From a virus: 46,333 nt of DNA. The notes beneath the pieces were generated by a model, which worked only from the letters and a program-made list of their open reading frames with translations, had not been told where the DNA came from and ran no database searches. This document shows, in pieces, positions 5,421 through 43,328 of this stretch (position 1 is the stretch's first letter; each line of letters begins with the position of its first letter). The position numbers were made by a program, and so were the translations under genes. The DNA is taken from the IMG/VR virus record IMGVR_UViG_3300028422_001974, positions 1-46,333 of that record, one strand, 5' to 3'.

Positions 5421-8315
5421 TTATCTGCCGGCGACTGCGATAACTGCGCCGGAGTCAAGCTGGCGGCGGGTATTTTCCTCGATGCGCTGCTGCACCCGCA
5501 GGCTGTCGCGGGCGATATTAGTGGTCTCGCCCTGCAGCTGCCCGGAGAATGTTCCCTGCGCGCTGGGGCGAACCGTCTCTTCAATTTGTGGCAGCAGATC
5601 AGAGAACCAGTTTTTAAACTCGTCAAGCATCGGGGCATTTTTACCGCCGCTGTTGATCTGCTCAATCAGGCTTGACATTTCCTTATCAAGCTCCATTCCG
5701 CCGATATTATTGGCCGGGTCTTTGAGGGCTTTAATCTGCTCGCGGATCTCCCCGATCTTTTCCTGCAGGCCGTTTCCGGCCTGATCCATCAGACCAGCGG
5801 CAGCCTGCGAGGCGACCTCGGCAGCTGAAGCGATAGACTCGACCAGCTTTGACTGACCACTAGCCCCCTGCTCCTGCACCCGCTTGATCTCATCGGAAAT
5901 ATCACTGATTGATTTACGGATTTTATCGGTATCAATATCCCCGCCGAGGGCGTCTTTGAGCTTGTCAATCCGCTCCTGCGCCTCTTCATAGTCCTTGTTG
6001 TCCCAGGCGCTTTTACCGTACGCCAGCGCAGCGCCAAACTGACCCGTCTGCAAAGCGGCAAATGTCAGCATCACGTCCTTGCCGCGCTTGAGAGCCGCAA
6101 TGACATTCTCAACCAGCGAGTAGACTTTAATGAAACCGCTGCGCAGAATATCAAAGACCGTCCCCCCGGCCAGACCGACCTGTAAAAGCACCTTCTTGAT
6201 ATTGAGGAAGGTCAGCTCGAGTTTTTTGCCGACGCTTGAGCCGAACAGATCAAACGCCCCCACCGAGCGGATCAGCCCAGGAATCGAGGAAATAAACCCG
6301 GTCAGCCGCTTGAGAATCGCGCCGATAGCGTCAAAAGCCACCTTCTTGGCGGTCAGAAAACCGATACTGAACCAGTTGCCGATTGAGACCCCGGCAATTT
6401 TGGCGGCCATTGCCGTCTCGACCATGCGCCTGATTGCCCCGCCAAAAGCGTTGTTGTATAAATCGGTCAAGGTCTGCAGCAGCTCTGACTGGCGGATTAA
6501 TTCCCGGCTGATCAACCCCAGAGGTGAAAGAATAACCGAGAGAATACTCGACACCGCCAGAAGCGCCCCGGCTGTCAGGCTCGCGCCGATTGCCATCGCC
6601 TTAAACGCCACCGACGCCCCCAGCAGGATCTCCGGCAGGTCGACAAACTTCTGGATAAACTCGCCGCTGCGCTGTATCCACTGCTGCAGGACCCGCAATC
6701 CGCCGATCATCGCCCGGTGGAATTTCGAGTGCGAGATCGTCAGTACCCCGCCAAGCAGCTCGGAGGTTTTGAGGATCTCGGCATTTAAAGTCTGCTGCTG
6801 GTTACCGTATTTCTCAGTGTTATTCTGCAGGTGGTTCCAGGAACCGGCAGCACTCTGAGCGGCGGCGCTTAAAGTAGCCAGAGCAATCTGGGCCTTATTG
6901 GCTGAAGCCGGATTAATGCTCTTGTTTAAAAGTTCCTGCTTGATTGCCGCCTGCTCGACGACCACACCAAGCTCATAAAGCTCATCGAGATTGCCGCCGA
7001 TTGCCGCCTTGAGCGCGGAGAAGACCTTGACGGGGTCTGCTCCGAGTGAACTGCCGATATCATTTCCAAGACGGACAACGGTCTTGGAGAGTTCGGCTGC
7101 CAGAGTTGAGGACAAGGCAAGTTTTTTAAATTCATTATTGAAAGTCAGCAGCTGCTGGGCGGTAGTGGTGAACGCCCGCCCTACCCCGTCGGAATACGCC
7201 TGCGCCCATTTGGTGATCTCGGCGCTGCTGGCGCCAAAAGTCTGGGTCAGACGGAATACCGTATTACCGGCAACCCGGGCATCATCATACATCCGCTGGA
7301 AAAACTCCGAAGTTTTGGTCGAAGCGTTAGCGGCAATGTCAGAGAGTTTATCCAGCGCGGGGATAACCTTGTAAAGAGCATCCGCCATCCGGTCAAGCGA
7401 GCCTAAAATGGCTGTCTTGATACTGGCCGCCAGCGACTGCATACTTGAAACCAGAGATTTACCCGCCGCATTGACCCGCTTGAACCCCTCAACCAGAATC
7501 TTGCCCAGAACCTTGCCGACCTCGTAACCGGCCTTTGAGACCTCCCACAAAACATTGGTCAATAATTTTAACAGGGCACTGCCCGCCCCGATCGTCCCCC
7601 AGAATACTTTCCATGCCGCAACAATAGTCCCAATGGCGAAAGCAATTGCCAGAAGCGGAGCCAGAACCGGAGCGGCGGCAACCGCAAGCCGGATCAACCC
7701 CTTTATACATAAAGATAAAATTGGTGGCAAGGCACTCAAGACAGTTTTAAGAACGGTAAAAGCAATTGACGTAATTGAAACCTGCGCCCCGGCGGCAGCG
7801 ATCACGCCCTTAAGTTTCCCCCAAAGTAACGCCTGAATATCGATAAATTTATTTACGTAACCTATCACTTCATAAACGGTACCGGCGATAGAAATATACT
7901 GGATCAGGCTGATAATCATATCCATAATTGAAGATGACTGTTTTTTTGTCGCAGCATCTGACTCTGCCAGAGCGTTAGCTGCGGTTTTTGCGTTCTCGGA
8001 TAAATTATCCATACCGGAATTACCTGCGGACTGAGCAAGCGCGACAAGTGCAGCCTGCAAAGCCTCAGAAGACTGAGCCGATTCAGAAGCAGCCTTGGTG
8101 TAATTACCGGTTGAATCACGCAGCCCCATCAACTGAGATGAAAGCTCAGATGCAATATTTTTAATGGCTTTTATACCGTCAACACCCTGACCAATTTGAC
8201 TCAACGCCGCCGTCAGGTCTTTGACCTTCTGTTGCAGCTCGTCAAAAGCGGCGCTGGCGGCCATGGCCTCCTGATCGAGATTATTCAGGCCGGATTTTTC
8301 TCCGTCTTCATCCAT
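5421..8315 (-). CDS. Tail tape measure protein
   Basis: 964 residues and the longest tail gene, which sets tail length and helps DNA entry. It is Ala- and Gln-rich and largely alpha-helical, with several long hydrophobic stretches (about residues 130-152, 175-250 and 560-600) that are typical of tape measure proteins and may insert in the membrane during injection. It follows the tail-assembly chaperone genes, the standard order. The ATG at 8315 has GGGAG seven bases upstream and overlaps the end of the preceding 83-residue gene by eight bases. No lytic transglycosylase or peptidase domain is evident. Confidence 0.88.
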   Translation of the reverse strand: MDEDGEKSGLNNLDQEAMAASAAFDELQQKVKDLTAALSQIGQGVDGIKAIKNIASELSSQLMGLRDSTGNYTKAASESAQSSEALQAALVALAQSAGNSGMDNLSENAKTAANALAESDAATKKQSSSIMDMIISLIQYISIAGTVYEVIGYVNKFIDIQALLWGKLKGVIAAAGAQVSITSIAFTVLKTVLSALPPILSLCIKGLIRLAVAAAPVLAPLLAIAFAIGTIVAAWKVFWGTIGAGSALLKLLTNVLWEVSKAGYEVGKVLGKILVEGFKRVNAAGKSLVSSMQSLAASIKTAILGSLDRMADALYKVIPALDKLSDIAANASTKTSEFFQRMYDDARVAGNTVFRLTQTFGASSAEITKWAQAYSDGVGRAFTTTAQQLLTFNNEFKKLALSSTLAAELSKTVVRLGNDIGSSLGADPVKVFSALKAAIGGNLDELYELGVVVEQAAIKQELLNKSINPASANKAQIALATLSAAAQSAAGSWNHLQNNTEKYGNQQQTLNAEILKTSELLGGVLTISHSKFHRAMIGGLRVLQQWIQRSGEFIQKFVDLPEILLGASVAFKAMAIGASLTAGALLAVSSILSVILSPLGLISRELIRQSELLQTLTDLYNNAFGGAIRRMVETAMAAKIAGVSIGNWFSIGFLTAKKVAFDAIGAILKRLTGFISSIPGLIRSVGAFDLFGSSVGKKLELTFLNIKKVLLQVGLAGGTVFDILRSGFIKVYSLVENVIAALKRGKDVMLTFAALQTGQFGAALAYGKSAWDNKDYEEAQERIDKLKDALGGDIDTDKIRKSISDISDEIKRVQEQGASGQSKLVESIASAAEVASQAAAGLMDQAGNGLQEKIGEIREQIKALKDPANNIGGMELDKEMSSLIEQINSGGKNAPMLDEFKNWFSDLLPQIEETVRPSAQGTFSGQLQGETTNIARDSLRVQQRIEENTRRQLDSGAVIAVAGR

Positions 8316-9821: not shown

Positions 9822-10010
9822 TTAAATATATTTGATGGGTCTTCTGACCCTGTTTTCATAACTGTCTGCCAGTCGTTTTGAGCGTTCAACCTGCGCACTG
9901 GTTTTCAGGCTGGCAAAAGCGAGCTTGCCACCGCGGGAATCAATTGGCCCGTTACCGCCAAGGCCGACCTTCCAGTTGGTATGCTCGTAATATAAAAAGC
10001 GTCCACGCAT
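9822..10010 (-). CDS. Small basic phage protein
   Basis: 62 residues starting at ATG 10010, whose A overlaps the TGA of the upstream tail gene (TGATG), a coupling pattern that fixes the start. A longer reading upstream in this frame is only an open shadow. The sequence is basic, with YYEHTNWKVGLGGNGPIDSRGGKLAFASL, and ends RVRRPIKYI. The family is not recognised; it lies between the tail terminator and tail tube genes. Confidence 0.6.
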   Translation of the reverse strand: MRGRFLYYEHTNWKVGLGGNGPIDSRGGKLAFASLKTSAQVERSKRLADSYENRVRRPIKYI

Positions 10011-10450
10011 CAGACCAGAAACTCCCCACTGACCTGCAGGCTGATTATCCCGGTGTAAACCCCGTCCTGAATATGCAGCGGTGAATACACCGGGGCGGGA
10101 CTGGCCTTGCATTTAAGCTTCCCGACCCCGATGCGGTTGTCATCAAGCGCCTGCACCAGCTCGTCAAGCAGCGCCCGCATGACGTTTTTCTCCTCAAGAG
10201 TTTTCACTTTCTGCTGCAGCGCCAAGTCCATCATCACGGTCAGACGTTTAACCCGGCGGCCGAATCTTTTATACCGGAAATCCTGCAGCACCTGCCAGAC
10301 CAGCAGTTTGTCATCTTTTTTAATCCGGAAGATTTTGGCGATGTCCTTGACCGGGTCATAGCTCTGCTCAATTACCGGAGTAAAGCCGAACGCAAACGTA
10401 TCAAGCCAGGCACGAACCTCGTCCATAACATACCCCGTGTAATCCGCCAT
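10010..10450 (-). CDS. Tail completion / terminator-like protein
   Basis: 146 residues, mixed alpha/beta. It starts with MDEVRAWLDTFAFGF and ends with a beta-rich segment (GVYTGIISLQVSGEF), which resembles minor tail or tail terminator proteins that cap the tube. It precedes the tail tube gene across a coupled 62-residue gene. It overlaps that gene by one base. Family assignment is by position and general fold pattern. Confidence 0.5.
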   Translation of the reverse strand: MADYTGYVMDEVRAWLDTFAFGFTPVIEQSYDPVKDIAKIFRIKKDDKLLVWQVLQDFRYKRFGRRVKRLTVMMDLALQQKVKTLEEKNVMRALLDELVQALDDNRIGVGKLKCKASPAPVYSPLHIQDGVYTGIISLQVSGEFLV

Positions 10451-10467: not shown

Positions 10468-11109
10468 TTAATTCAAGTTGATTGTTTTGCTTGTGCTACT
10501 CTGGTTATCTTCACCCCGGTAAACAAAAACAACAATGATGATTACGACCAGAATAATGGCTGCAAAAATCCAGATTGCTAAATCAGGGTTATAATGAAAA
10601 GCAAGTATTACCCCGATAAGTGCCGCCCCGCATCCGGCAACAATCACGCCAAGCTTACGACCGACTCCAGGTGAATAAACTGCCCAGCCAATGCCAGAAA
10701 CCACCGCCAGAAACCCCATTACCAGAATCGGGATTGGAATTTTCTTTGCCGCTTTCCAGATCTGCTGTTCGGTTGTCTGGCTCTCGCTGCTTGATTCCTG
10801 ACTCTGGCTGTTGCTTGTTCTCAAGGTCATTGTCGGATACATCAGCGGATACTGGTACGGGAACTGGAACATCGCATTTCCCGCCTGTGCATACGGCGGC
10901 CGGAATTGCTGCATCAGCTGCATCCAGCTTATTATTATTTCCAGTGACTGGTTTTTGTTCAGGCTTCCCCGTTCCGTCAGGTGACTTTGCTTCTGGCTGT
11001 TTCCGTCCGTGTCCTTCTGGAAGAGGTTGCACCCCGGGATCAACATGAGCAGGCAGAGGCTGAACAGCCACAAGAGGATTCGACTTGACTGGTTTCTTTT
11101 TGTGTTCAT
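10468..11109 (-). CDS. Lipoprotein-like protein with three C-terminal membrane segments, embedded out of frame
   Basis: 213 residues. The N-terminus has a signal peptide ending in LMLIPGC, close to a lipobox but with an unusual proline before the glycine. A Gln/Ser/Pro-rich region follows, then three hydrophobic segments near residues 123-146, 150-171 and 176-197. Its first 455 bases overlap, in the +1 frame, the gene at 10655-11299, which also encodes a lipoprotein. The last 187 bases are not overlapped and encode the membrane segments, so the frame is very likely real. The overlap recalls Rz/Rz1 spanin genes, but the membrane tail is unusual; it could combine outer-membrane and holin-like roles. 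Confidence 0.65.
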   Translation of the reverse strand: MNTKRNQSSRILLWLFSLCLLMLIPGCNLFQKDTDGNSQKQSHLTERGSLNKNQSLEIIISWMQLMQQFRPPYAQAGNAMFQFPYQYPLMYPTMTLRTSNSQSQESSSESQTTEQQIWKAAKKIPIPILVMGFLAVVSGIGWAVYSPGVGRKLGVIVAGCGAALIGVILAFHYNPDLAIWIFAAIILVVIIIVVFVYRGEDNQSSTSKTINLN

Positions 11110-11299
11110 CTTTTACGACCCTGTAGACCTTTCTGTCTGATTTCATTTTGACCGGCTCAACATGATAGCCTGCGGGCATGGTGATTCTGGTTTCAACTTC
11201 CGGGCTGCTCTTGGCCTCTTCCTTGAGATTGCAACCCGTAACAGATAACCCCAAAAGAAGGGCATTCATGACAAACAGCAATAGATAAATCTTTTTCAT
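10655..11299 (-). CDS. Proline-rich lipoprotein, o-spanin candidate
   Basis: 214 residues. The signal peptide ends in the good lipobox SVTGC (Cys at about 23), so the mature protein should be lipid-anchored. The mature part is Pro/Lys/Glu-rich with PVPVPV-type runs, as in Rz1-like outer-membrane spanins, though longer than usual. It overlaps the upstream inner-membrane coiled-coil gene by four bases and contains the start of another lipoprotein gene in the +1 frame. The set resembles a spanin pair for disrupting the outer membrane at lysis. No endolysin is adjacent. Confidence 0.65.
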   Translation of the reverse strand: MKKIYLLLFVMNALLLGLSVTGCNLKEEAKSSPEVETRITMPAGYHVEPVKMKSDRKVYRVVKDEHKKKPVKSNPLVAVQPLPAHVDPGVQPLPEGHGRKQPEAKSPDGTGKPEQKPVTGNNNKLDAADAAIPAAVCTGGKCDVPVPVPVSADVSDNDLENKQQPESGIKQREPDNRTADLESGKENSNPDSGNGVSGGGFWHWLGSLFTWSRS

Positions 11300-11661
11300 T
11301 CTCGTTTAACTCCTTTAAAGTTAGTAAAAGTGTTTCGTGCATCATCATATTCCGGCAGCGGTGGTTCTGGTTGCATAGCATATCCGTCCCCCTTAAAAAA
11401 TTTCTTCATCTCACGCAGTTCATACTTAAGATCAGAAAAATTTTCATCATTGGCTTTTTGCTGCTTCTCAATACTCTTTTCAATACTTGCAATCTTCGCC
11501 TCAAAAAGAGACGGTGAAACCGAAGTCTTGTACTGAAAAATTGCACCGCCACCAGCAAGCGTTATCGCAATACCGGTAAAAAACATCATCACATTCCAGA
11601 TACGGTTAAAGACATCTGCACGGTACTTATCGCAAAGATCTTTTGAAAATTCATCCCCCAT
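11296..11661 (-). CDS. Membrane-anchored coiled-coil protein, i-spanin candidate
   Basis: 121 residues. A charged start is followed by one membrane segment (about 24-44, VMMFFTGIAITLAGGGAIF), a heptad-rich coiled coil (about 52-92) and a Pro-rich acidic tail. This topology matches inner-membrane spanins (Rz-like). The stop overlaps the start of a lipoprotein gene (ATGA), the coupling expected for an i-spanin/o-spanin pair. A holin or other membrane protein is the alternative. Confidence 0.6.
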   Translation of the reverse strand: MGDEFSKDLCDKYRADVFNRIWNVMMFFTGIAITLAGGGAIFQYKTSVSPSLFEAKIASIEKSIEKQQKANDENFSDLKYELREMKKFFKGDGYAMQPEPPLPEYDDARNTFTNFKGVKRE

Positions 11662-11928
11662 TTATTCCCCTTCCAGAGTGTTTAGTGCTGGCGGTTTGCA
11701 CCATGAACACGGCACTGCGCCACCGCCTGAAATTTCGTTGATTTCCCGTAATGTATTGCCGGTTACTTCTGCCCCCGTGTAGCGGCATTTAGGATTCAAA
11801 CAGTGATACTTGCCAGTGCTGACGTTGTAATCGTAAAGTTCCGGTTCGGCGGTCACGCTTGCGGCATTTGACTTTAAAAAATCACTGCGAGAAACAGATT
11901 TGCCAGACTGCATAAATGAAACGCCCAT
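11662..11928 (-). CDS. Small zinc-ribbon-like protein
   Basis: 88 residues with two cysteine pairs, CLNPKC and CSWC, spaced about 30 residues apart, suggesting one bound zinc. The ATG overlaps the stop of the preceding gene (TGATG), and GGGGAGG lies eight bases upstream, so the start is well supported. It is the junction between the head and lysis-like genes. Function unknown. Confidence 0.6.
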   Translation of the reverse strand: MGVSFMQSGKSVSRSDFLKSNAASVTAEPELYDYNVSTGKYHCLNPKCRYTGAEVTGNTLREINEISGGGAVPCSWCKPPALNTLEGE

Positions 11929-13133
11929 CAGCTAGTCCTCCCCATGTAAATTGCTCCGGTGATCTCTCCATCAATGTATGTGCCGCCTGTGCTCTGGTTG
12001 CTGGAAATACTCAGGCCGATTGATGTACCGGTAGTCATTTCAAATTCGGCTACGCTGATACCGAAATAATTATTGCCGAGGTCAATGACTGAATCCTGAG
12101 GCAGCGCATTGCTGTAATTTGTTGAGCCGTCACTTGAAACGCGGATAGTTAAATCGCTGTCAGAATCGCCGATAGTGAGCGCCCCGGTTGCATCGTTACG
12201 TTTTGCGACGATTGACAGAGTTCCGGCAACATGAGTGGTCGGGAGTTCAACCGGGTCAATAATTGCGTCAAGTTGGTTGACCGTGGCTGCTGCGCCGACC
12301 TCAACAAGCTGAAAACCTGAAACATAACAGTACCCTGCGGTAGTATCGACCTTCGTAATATCAAGGCGGAAACGCTTGCCTGATGCTTGTGAAACATCTA
12401 GAGGATAGGTAATCCACGTATTGGCAGTATCCGCCCAGTCCGCTCCCGTGACCGTTAATATAGGTTCCCAGTTGACATCATCTGAGGTGCATTGAACAGT
12501 GAAATCTGTTGCGGCAAGTATGGTGTGCCCCATGGCAATCTTTACCGCTGCAATAGTCTGTTCTTCGGTGTTTACAATATCAACATAAGCGTTGCCGTCA
12601 CCATTGGAGTCAAAACTCGTGCTGGCTGGAGACCAAGAGTTATCTAGTCCCACGGCATTCCCATTGCAAACGTTCCAAGCCGGATAAGATGATGGACTAT
12701 TCTCGGATGATGCGATGATTGTCCAGCTACCGTTGGTATAGTCTGACATTGTTGGCACAAGATCTCCACCGGCAGTGGCGGCAGTCGTGGTATTCTTCAA
12801 AACCCCGCCGGTGATCTCGCCATTATTAATGGTCACACCGTCGGTATCGCTGAATGTCCAGATTATGCCATCGTCAGTTGATATATCCTGCCCCAAACCA
12901 GCCGCCGCCGCACAGAGCAACAACTTTGTTTGCTGGTCATACTGGTCAAGACTGACTGTGCCTTCAGTTGAGCCGCCTTCATAATTGCTTATATCTACGG
13001 CATTGACCACAAGCACCTTGCGGGTGTATCCTCCGGCGGTGCTGTCAGGATCAACGGCCAGAACGCTGCCGGAATTCGGCGTCGCTCCGTCCTGACCCGG
13101 AATATAGGCTTTTACTTTTTCTACATATGACAT
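11928..13133 (-). CDS. Virion decoration protein with F5/8 type C-like domain
   Basis: 401 residues, Gly/Thr/Ser/Asp-rich, beta. Residues about 135-260 (SWTIIASSENSPSSYPAWNVCNG ... VDIVNTEEQTIAAVKIAMGHT ... FRLDITKV) have the layout of a discoidin (F5/8 type C) galactose-binding-like fold. This suggests glycan or surface binding by the capsid or neck. It sits between head-tail joining and lysis-like genes. The surrounding parts look like structural or adhesin repeats. The domain call is by eye. Confidence 0.55.
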   Translation of the reverse strand: MSYVEKVKAYIPGQDGATPNSGSVLAVDPDSTAGGYTRKVLVVNAVDISNYEGGSTEGTVSLDQYDQQTKLLLCAAAAGLGQDISTDDGIIWTFSDTDGVTINNGEITGGVLKNTTTAATAGGDLVPTMSDYTNGSWTIIASSENSPSSYPAWNVCNGNAVGLDNSWSPASTSFDSNGDGNAYVDIVNTEEQTIAAVKIAMGHTILAATDFTVQCTSDDVNWEPILTVTGADWADTANTWITYPLDVSQASGKRFRLDITKVDTTAGYCYVSGFQLVEVGAAATVNQLDAIIDPVELPTTHVAGTLSIVAKRNDATGALTIGDSDSDLTIRVSSDGSTNYSNALPQDSVIDLGNNYFGISVAEFEMTTGTSIGLSISSNQSTGGTYIDGEITGAIYMGRTS

Positions 13134-23399: not shown

Positions 23400-24662
23400 T
23401 TACAAATCAAAGAGTTCCGATATATCACTATCCCCCTCAATACCCTCATCTTCCGGATTATCCTCAACACTCCCCTCACCCACTATATCTTGTGTCGATA
23501 CAGAATCCGCATAATCATCATTTTCCATATTCTCAGGAACTTCCACAGGCTCAAGCACCGGCATCAGTTTTTCAAGCTGCTCCCGTCCAGCCAACGCGTC
23601 CGAGCTGAAGCGATGCGAATAATTCTCCTGCGTGGTCACCCGCGAGTGCTGCAAGGTAGCCTGAATGCTACCAAGCCCAATCCCACCCACCTGCTGGAGC
23701 AAGGTCGCCGAAGTATGCCGCGATTTATACACGACAAAATCCTTGACCTGCACCTTCCTACAACAAGCCCGCAAACGCCCGGCAAAGGACTGCGAAGTCC
23801 AGCCCCCCGAAGTCGACCGCCCATTCTGCGACACAAAAACCTTATCCGCCCGCTTGGCCCTGCGCCCACGAAAGCTTTTAAATAACGCCTTGCAGTCAAG
23901 CAAAAGCTGATGCTTCTTTGAGCCATACTCCACAACCACCGACGACTCCACCCCACCCTTGCAGGCCTGCAGATCCACCTTGCCAAAATCCTTCTTAGAT
24001 GGCAACGCCACATCATCCCAAGACAAAGCAAAGAGCTGCGCCGGACGCGCCCCAAAGAGAAAGACCCCACGTACCACCGCCGCTACATGCGGATAACGGC
24101 CATGCAGGCGACGCACAATACGCGAGAACTCAGTCAGAGTCAGAGCCTGCGGCGTATACTGATTGCCCCGAGTCTTACCCTTTGCTTTAAGTTTGAACAG
24201 CTCACAAGGCAGATCAGGCAAAGCCGCCTTCTCCACCAACCGCGCCCAACGCACAAACTGCCGCAGATCCGCCAGATACTTGCGCACCGTATCCACAGAT
24301 AAGGTTGAGTATGAAGTCTCATAACGACGCTTCTTGCCGGACTTGCCAGAAACATGCCGACACCAGTTAGCCATATCATCAGCGAAGATCAACGAAAGCG
24401 GACGCGAACCAAAGTAATTGAGAAACGATTCAAGATTACGCCGCTTGGATTTTTCCGTATCAGCAGTCCAGCCAGAAAGCGAGGACTGATAATTGACAAA
24501 GCGCTCAATATTCTCCTGATTAAGCGATAGCGTCGCCTGCTTGCCATTCTCAAACGCCGCAAGAGCCAGAGCGCCATACTCATTAAAAATATCAAGAAAC
24601 CGCCTGGCCTCAGAATCAGAATTAACAACCTTCGAGAATTCACGACGCACCGTTTTTTTCAT
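23400..24662 (-). CDS. Internal tyrosine recombinase with acidic tail
   Basis: 420 residues. A SAM-like N-terminal domain (about 50-150) is followed by a catalytic domain with R206 (FLFGARPAQL), SRHT (R315, H316), LQHSRVTTQENY (H339, Y348). The lysine hairpin may be in GSKKHQL. The final 45 residues are strongly acidic (EDNPEDEGIEGDSDISELFDL), unusual for this family. It lies in the middle of the prophage between a methylase and the early operon, not at an end. It could be a dimer resolution, inversion or excision enzyme, or the true integrase of a circularly permuted map. Confidence 0.88.
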   Translation of the reverse strand: MKKTVRREFSKVVNSDSEARRFLDIFNEYGALALAAFENGKQATLSLNQENIERFVNYQSSLSGWTADTEKSKRRNLESFLNYFGSRPLSLIFADDMANWCRHVSGKSGKKRRYETSYSTLSVDTVRKYLADLRQFVRWARLVEKAALPDLPCELFKLKAKGKTRGNQYTPQALTLTEFSRIVRRLHGRYPHVAAVVRGVFLFGARPAQLFALSWDDVALPSKKDFGKVDLQACKGGVESSVVVEYGSKKHQLLLDCKALFKSFRGRRAKRADKVFVSQNGRSTSGGWTSQSFAGRLRACCRKVQVKDFVVYKSRHTSATLLQQVGGIGLGSIQATLQHSRVTTQENYSHRFSSDALAGREQLEKLMPVLEPVEVPENMENDDYADSVSTQDIVGEGSVEDNPEDEGIEGDSDISELFDL

Positions 24663-41806: not shown

Positions 41807-41942
41807 TTATAATCCATGCAAATTAAGCACTTATATGACATAATCAATCCTATAACACTGATTCATTTTATGTATTTTTAATCATTTTTAAGGATTTGGG
41901 GTAATAAATTTGCCCAAAATCAGCCCAAAAGAAGGATCCACT

Positions 41943-43328
41943 ATGGCTGTAAAGGATGAACGTCCAGAAGGCGCACCAGAAGGATTAGTCCTAAGAGGAG
42001 CATGGTATCACTATATTAGAACCTTCAAAGGTAATACTATAAAGAAAGCTCTCAAAACCAAGAATTATAACCAAGCTGTGCGTATGGTTATGGAATTAAA
42101 TGAACGTATTGAAGATAAGAAGGTCTCCCCTGCCCTAGCTGTTAATAAGGATAACTATAGCTTTGCCCATACAGCAGAGAAATACACAGAATCCAGAACG
42201 ATTAGACCAAAAACAATTGAAAGATATAATGAAATAGCTGCCAACATCAACAAAGGCTTTGAGTATATCACAGGCAAACCAGAAACTCCATTACAAGAAA
42301 TAAGCCGTCAATTGGTTCAAGATTATATCAAATACAGGCAAACAACCAAGATAAATCCGAATGGTCATGAAAACACCCCTCAACAAGAAGGTATTGCCCC
42401 AAAAACAATACAGGATGAATTTGACCATATCAAGCGGGTACTTAGGTTTGCTGAAAGGCGTGAGTGGCTAATCAAGATGCCAGACTTACTAGATGTGTTT
42501 AAAACCAAGAGAAAAAAAGGTGTGATGTCTGAAGTTGCCCGTCCACTGGAAGCAGAAGAAGTAACAGCAATTCTAAAAGAAGCAAGATTACATGATTCAC
42601 AAAATATTGGGAAGTATGTTTATCCCAACTATATTGAGTCATTAATAAGACTGTATATTTTCTCTGGATTACGTAAAAATGAAGGAAGGTTCTTAGAATG
42701 GTCAGATATTGATTTTAAGAATCATATAATCAAGGTTCGTCCAAAGAAAATAACCTGTAATCGAGCCATCAAATTCACAACTGAAACATGGGATAAAATC
42801 AAGGATTACATATGTCTTGAAAAGGATAAGCAAGCAATCTCTAATAATCCAACAGCATTAAAGATGGTAGGATATGCTTTACAATTCAAAATTGAGGAGA
42901 AACTATTATCAATAAGAGGTCAAGATTTCGACCTTAAAAAGCAATGTATCAACTTCAGTGAAACCTTTAGTTGGAACCCGAAAGGAAGTTCCGGCGAAAT
43001 CCCAATACACAACCAGCTCTATGGTACTTTGACAGAGCTTTTCAAGATTAAAACCAGTAATTTCGTATTCCCTTCACTAGATGGTGGCTATTATAACTTC
43101 AAACTTGAGTATACGTTTAACAAGCTGACATTAGCCGCAGGAATTTCTGACCACATCAGAATACATGATATGCGTCATACACTAGGATATCTACTTCGAA
43201 GGCAAGGAATTGGGTTGGAGGTTATTAAGGAGATCCTTCGCCACGCAAGTATAGAACAAACCCTTGTATATGCCAAGTACAATAAAGAGGAAGGCCAAAC
43301 CGCAATAAGCAAATTACCGGATTTTTAG
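41943..43328 (+). CDS. Tyrosine recombinase, AT-rich (tandem element integrase)
   Basis: 461 residues from ATG 41943 with GAAGGA six bases upstream. Catalytic residues: R244 (FSGLRKNEG), H408-R411-H412 (IHDMRH), and Y443 (TLVYAKY) after LRHASIEQ. The N-terminal region has a basic arm-type domain. Codon use is far more AT-rich than the prophage genes, so it belongs to another element. Its position directly after the tRNA fragment and terminator is standard for a tRNA-integrated island. Confidence 0.92.
   Translation: MAVKDERPEGAPEGLVLRGAWYHYIRTFKGNTIKKALKTKNYNQAVRMVMELNERIEDKKVSPALAVNKDNYSFAHTAEKYTESRTIRPKTIERYNEIAANINKGFEYITGKPETPLQEISRQLVQDYIKYRQTTKINPNGHENTPQQEGIAPKTIQDEFDHIKRVLRFAERREWLIKMPDLLDVFKTKRKKGVMSEVARPLEAEEVTAILKEARLHDSQNIGKYVYPNYIESLIRLYIFSGLRKNEGRFLEWSDIDFKNHIIKVRPKKITCNRAIKFTTETWDKIKDYICLEKDKQAISNNPTALKMVGYALQFKIEEKLLSIRGQDFDLKKQCINFSETFSWNPKGSSGEIPIHNQLYGTLTELFKIKTSNFVFPSLDGGYYNFKLEYTFNKLTLAAGISDHIRIHDMRHTLGYLLRRQGIGLEVIKEILRHASIEQTLVYAKYNKEEGQTAISKLPDF

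Follow-up and report, generated by a model that had tools for sequence, protein, structure and literature searches.

A candidate spanin-like cassette with two very probably overprinted lipoprotein genes in a prophage most likely from Planctomycetota

The closest described counterparts of the locus presented here are the spanins, which occur as two-component pairs, with embedded, overlapped or separated genes, or as unimolecular proteins (Kongari et al., 2018; PMC6139136). According to that survey, the unimolecular u-spanins, exemplified by T1 gp11 and counting 58 examples, combine an N-terminal lipoylation signal with a C-terminal transmembrane domain (TMD). Periplasmic cysteines occur in none of these 58 and are usual in two-component spanins (PMC6139136). 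The same survey describes spanins as extremely diverse, with many families being singletons, reports lipoproteins to be rare in phage genomes, and offers the speculation that u-spanins could derive from o-spanins that gained a C-terminal TMD (PMC6139136).

The window, i.e., the whole stretch of 46,333 nucleotides analysed here, comes from a bacterial genome bin and represents a minus-strand prophage region, the host being most likely a member of the Planctomycetota. Family models recognise portal, capsid-protease, head decoration, neck, tail, terminase and integrase genes, and the tape measure gene could be assigned to 5421-8315 by its place, its length and a match to its counterpart in a related prophage. 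Three tyrosine-recombinase-like genes are distributed over both strands (1-1305, 23400-24662 and 41910-43328), and a protein with an F5/8 type C (discoidin) domain, with no homologue in the related loci, is encoded between the neck and zinc-ribbon-like genes (11928-13133). Given how complete the head and tail genes are, an endolysin or holin would be expected in the window; none was recognised by Pfam or PHROG among the window proteins scanned, cassette neighbours included. A cassette of three genes, in the order I, A and B, is situated between the neck and the tail genes and shares its strand with the head and tail genes; promoter signal at this place shows no excess over shuffles. The features of the cassette are:

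11296..11661, minus strand: gene I, 121 aa, one membrane segment (residues ∼24-44), then a charged helical region, an i-spanin-like candidate
10655..11299, minus strand: gene A, predicted lipoprotein of 214 aa, o-spanin-like
10468..11109, minus strand: gene B, predicted lipoprotein of 213 aa with three C-terminal membrane helices, u-spanin-like
10655..11109, minus strand: overlap of A and B, very likely dual-coding, 455 bp, B in the +1 frame of A
10675..10734, minus strand: predicted membrane helix 1 of B, within the overlap, where frame A encodes an aromatic tail
10483..10665, minus strand: predicted membrane helices 2 and 3 of B, almost wholly outside the overlap

The 3' end of I and the start of A share four bases (ATGA). 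Lipoprotein signals were called by a regular expression combined with a hydrophobicity rule: the signal peptide of A ends in LGLSVTG before Cys23, giving a consensus lipobox (VTGC) with Asn at +2, and that of B ends in LLMLIPG before Cys27, giving a lipobox (IPGC) whose Pro at -2 departs from the consensus [LVI][ASTVI][GAS]C. An earlier note on this DNA had claimed a signal peptide and a lipobox-type cysteine in both frames over 10655-11109, and this was confirmed. It had also placed three membrane segments of B beyond the overlap; three helices are indeed predicted, but as helix 1 falls inside the overlap, only two lie beyond it. The Shine-Dalgarno sequence is strong for A (aaaggag) and weak for B (caggg), that of I reading ggaagggg. 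A TAA stands two codons upstream of the ATG of B, so that 11109 is the first ATG, GTG or TTG start in this frame, in which further ATGs are found at 10923, 10914, 10872, 10842, 10830 and 10719. Translation of B from 11109, as well as lipidation and localisation of the products, are predictions from these signals. Throughout 2.4 Mb scanned (the coding strand of the window plus the fetched related loci), A and B form the only staggered pair of lipoprotein reading frames that overlap by more than 30 bp.

Codon usage is coding-like in both frames of the overlap. With 16 phage genes as training set, the codon log-odds amount to ∼0.10 in both frames and to -0.24 in the third, compared with a median of 0.31 for the phage genes when read in frame and about -0.2 when read out of frame. 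Both overlap frames are found near the 5th percentile of true genes but exceed more than 99% of the off-frame windows, which is what a compromise between two proteins should look like. Similar values (0.095 and 0.107) were obtained with 189 host genes, taken from 368 kb of the host genome, as training set. Among the stop-free off-frame stretches of 110 codons or more in phage and host genes, a log-odds of 0.09 was reached by none of the 58 in +1 and by one of the seven in +2, which makes the coding case stronger for B given A. Gene A needs less support, as it has 190 bases of its own outside the overlap, a strong Shine-Dalgarno sequence and a frame that stays open. When synonymous codons were resampled or permuted with the protein of A fixed, frame B was open through the overlap in 4-11% of the trials, carried a lipoprotein signal in 0.04-0.06%, and combined both in ∼0.02% (about 2 in 10,000); with the protein of B fixed, frame A was open in 0.2-0.7%. 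Together with the poor fit of a single frameshift (see below), these results support the proposal of the earlier note that two lipoproteins are dual-coded here, and we consider the overlap to be real and very likely to code for both.

Genes I and A are reminiscent of Rz/Rz1 of lambda (embedded) and LysB/LysC of P2 (overlapped), with which they share a membrane-plus-coil gene (I) followed in an overlapping frame by the gene of a Pro-rich lipoprotein (A), in agreement with the Rz/Rz1-like flavour noticed earlier. Yet, the long overlap lies here between two lipoproteins and not between i- and o-spanin, A is as long as 214 aa, and the overlap of I and A is just 4 bp. A resembles o-spanins in its VTGC lipobox, its Asn at +2 and its ATGA coupling to I, and two-component spanins in its presumably periplasmic cysteines: the mature part carries two, in the CTGGKC of its long disordered, Pro-rich stretch. 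In a single-sequence model, the signal helix is followed by a short beta hairpin ahead of the overlap, by disorder through most of the overlap, and by a short helix at the C-terminus, an aromatic tail that reads GGGFWHWLGSLFTWSRS over helix 1 of B. Rz1-type o-spanins are reported to be disordered and Pro-rich, as is the overlapped part of A. The i-spanin-like character ascribed to the upstream gene is hinted at by a small membrane-plus-coil gene at the exact place of I in three related loci (L047, L111 and L132), with the neck gene on one side and the counterpart of 10010-10450 on the other, and by a weak, non-significant match to the Rz-like spanin family PHROG_739 (E = 0.056). The presumed periplasmic part of I is without Cys, and the net charge at its N-terminus gives no clear orientation of its single membrane segment and charged helical region. 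No significant Pfam or PHROG match assigns I or A to a known spanin family.

B has the architecture of a known form of spanin, and the unusual part is the 455-bp overlap of two lipoproteins. The earlier note had held that a combined lipoprotein and membrane protein is not among the known forms of spanins, which has to be corrected: it is that of the u-spanins such as T1 gp11, as described in the survey (PMC6139136), and it is also found in 34 related loci. Like T1 gp11, B has an N-terminal lipoprotein signal, though off consensus, a periplasmic stretch (∼95 aa), a C-terminal membrane anchor, and no periplasmic Cys between Cys27 and helix 1. It differs in having three helices instead of one, an IPGC lipobox and an overlap with a second lipoprotein gene; no sequence similarity was shown, and the periplasmic part is predicted to be helical or disordered. 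Single-sequence AlphaFold modelling places the helices, with pLDDT ∼80 for most of their length, at residues 126-145, 149-173 and 175-209 (∼10734-10675, 10665-10591 and 10587-10483), and the loop charges, RK in the first loop and none in the second, fit an N-out, C-in topology. The same model gives the periplasmic part as a helix and low-confidence coil and not as the beta-rich domain of the gp11 family; as this domain is stated for that family and not for all u-spanins, we do not file B in the gp11 family. Matches of B at E<0.1 to TauE, ABC membrane and DUF4131 families were rejected as noise from hydrophobic segments, and Foldseek against viral models gave no match at E<=0.001.

Neither the genome itself nor 60 relatives, the family or the class yielded a homologue of A, B or I, and for B none was detected in 392 genomes of the phylum either. 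Searches by IMG/VR peptide patterns, by tblastn against INPHARED and in about 160 related loci, the portals of which are about 46-53% identical, gave none for any of the three. Of these loci, 34 encode a lipoprotein with a hydrophobic segment at its C-terminus, in no case with a periplasmic Cys, and where inspected its gene precedes the tape measure within the tail region (an earlier count anchored on the tape measure, 25 loci with a loose pattern, was set aside in favour of this one). This u-spanin-like family from the tail region of Phycisphaerae-type prophages comprises L151:16366-16836 and 33 further loci and has the pattern CAGFDLGD...LNEAE...LPALTGIVGLFIG..RLRKEKEASFNKG; the one member tested had no Pfam or PHROG match. 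Such Planctomycetota prophage genes (e.g., L151:16366-16836 and L059:18425-18892) share with B the SPII signal and the C-terminal hydrophobic segment, but they have no detectable similarity to B, show a 4-bp overlap, and are located elsewhere in the late operon. A lipoprotein gene lies directly upstream of a different lipoprotein-plus-membrane-segment gene in L047 and L059, as A does before B, with an overlap of 4 bp; the succession of a lipoprotein and a lipoprotein with a membrane tail thus occurs elsewhere in this group without a long overlap. The second protein of L047 has one periplasmic Cys, and the no-cysteine rule is therefore not absolute in this phage group. In most related prophages, the lipoprotein gene is located farther downstream by ∼2 kb, right in front of the tape measure gene. 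In yet another related locus (L034, reverse complement 5649-8043), a membrane-plus-coil gene precedes, as judged by eye, a YiiX/NlpC-P60-like protein and then a 482-aa protein with trypsin-like and thioredoxin-like parts, which has no Pfam match.

We propose that an o-spanin-like A, coupled to I, and a u-spanin-like B are overprinted in a lysis cassette that bridges the envelope, a reading to which we give a probability of roughly 0.55. A spanin role appears to be the most likely function of A and B from their sequence features, and the rarity of lipoproteins in phage genomes reported in the survey makes this reading a natural one (PMC6139136). I and A would form a two-component spanin, made of an inner-membrane protein with a periplasmic coil and a Pro-rich, Cys-bearing outer-membrane lipoprotein. 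B would act as a u-spanin, with its lipid anchor in the outer membrane, ∼95 residues crossing the periplasm, and three helices that hold it in the inner membrane and leave its C-terminus on the cytoplasmic side. At the end of infection, the breakdown of peptidoglycan would free these links, and their collapse would fuse or disrupt the outer membrane. By analogy with the surveyed spanins, the distribution of cysteines, absent from the periplasmic part of B as in u-spanins and present twice in A as in two-component spanins, would fit these roles (PMC6139136). Against this reading stand the Pro at -2 and the weak Shine-Dalgarno sequence of B, its three helices versus the one TMD described for u-spanins, the lack of A, B or I homologues in the searched sets, the non-significant spanin match of I, the downstream location of the lipoprotein gene in most relatives, and the fact that no endolysin or holin was recognised beside the cassette. 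That this one region of 455 bp gives rise to two different outer-membrane disruptors in one phage, one o-spanin-like and the other u-spanin-like, is a more tentative idea, which we put at slightly worse than even odds.

Doubts may be raised about the coding of B in the overlap. If A alone were translated there, the membrane tail of B could be a short three-helix, holin-like protein from an internal start (e.g., 10872 or 10719), and chance would account for the lipoprotein-like start of B. The weak Shine-Dalgarno sequence, the Pro at -2 and the several internal ATGs would agree with this, and a protein with two or three membrane segments near spanin-like genes would suit a holin; but the rarity of a lipoprotein signal in frame B in the trials with A fixed, a codon score in this frame above that of all 58 stop-free +1 off-frame stretches, and the rejection of A-only coding across the overlap (p = 5e-5) make such a scenario unlikely. 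Even less credible, and in our view very improbable, is that A and B are two pieces of a single lipoprotein with a C-terminal membrane tail, split by an assembly or sequencing error or by a programmed frameshift. The frames were read from assembled sequence alone and 34 related loci do carry a single gene of this kind, but one switch from A to B would leave 150 codons of stop-free, coding-like sequence off frame and would not create the signal peptide and lipobox that B has of its own. The single-switch model was rejected, with p <= 0.0015 at every switch point tried.

Both lipoproteins could also be real and serve superinfection exclusion or another function in the lysogen instead of lysis. 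Phage lipoproteins can act in exclusion, such as Llp of T5, and the failure to find an endolysin beside the cassette would be in line with such a role. Yet, the genes are tightly ordered among head and tail genes of the same strand, with a promoter signal not above that of shuffles, and the lipoprotein-plus-membrane-segment genes of the relatives lie in the late tail region. We thus regard this alternative as rather unlikely, and retain the spanin-like cassette as the best explanation.

Spanins are a textbook case of overprinting, and overlapping genes with export and lipidation signals on both products are rare. If the proposal is true, a pair of lipoproteins encoded over the same 455 bp, one of them anchored in the inner membrane, would represent a further route for the origin of spanins. 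The overprinting of an o-spanin-like and a u-spanin-like gene is an arrangement without description in the sections of the spanin survey drawn on here, and it bears on the origin of u-spanins speculated there, from o-spanins by gain of a C-terminal TMD (PMC6139136). The cassette would also give a hint at how phages of Planctomycetota, whose lysis genes seem to have been little studied, may break the outer membrane of their hosts.
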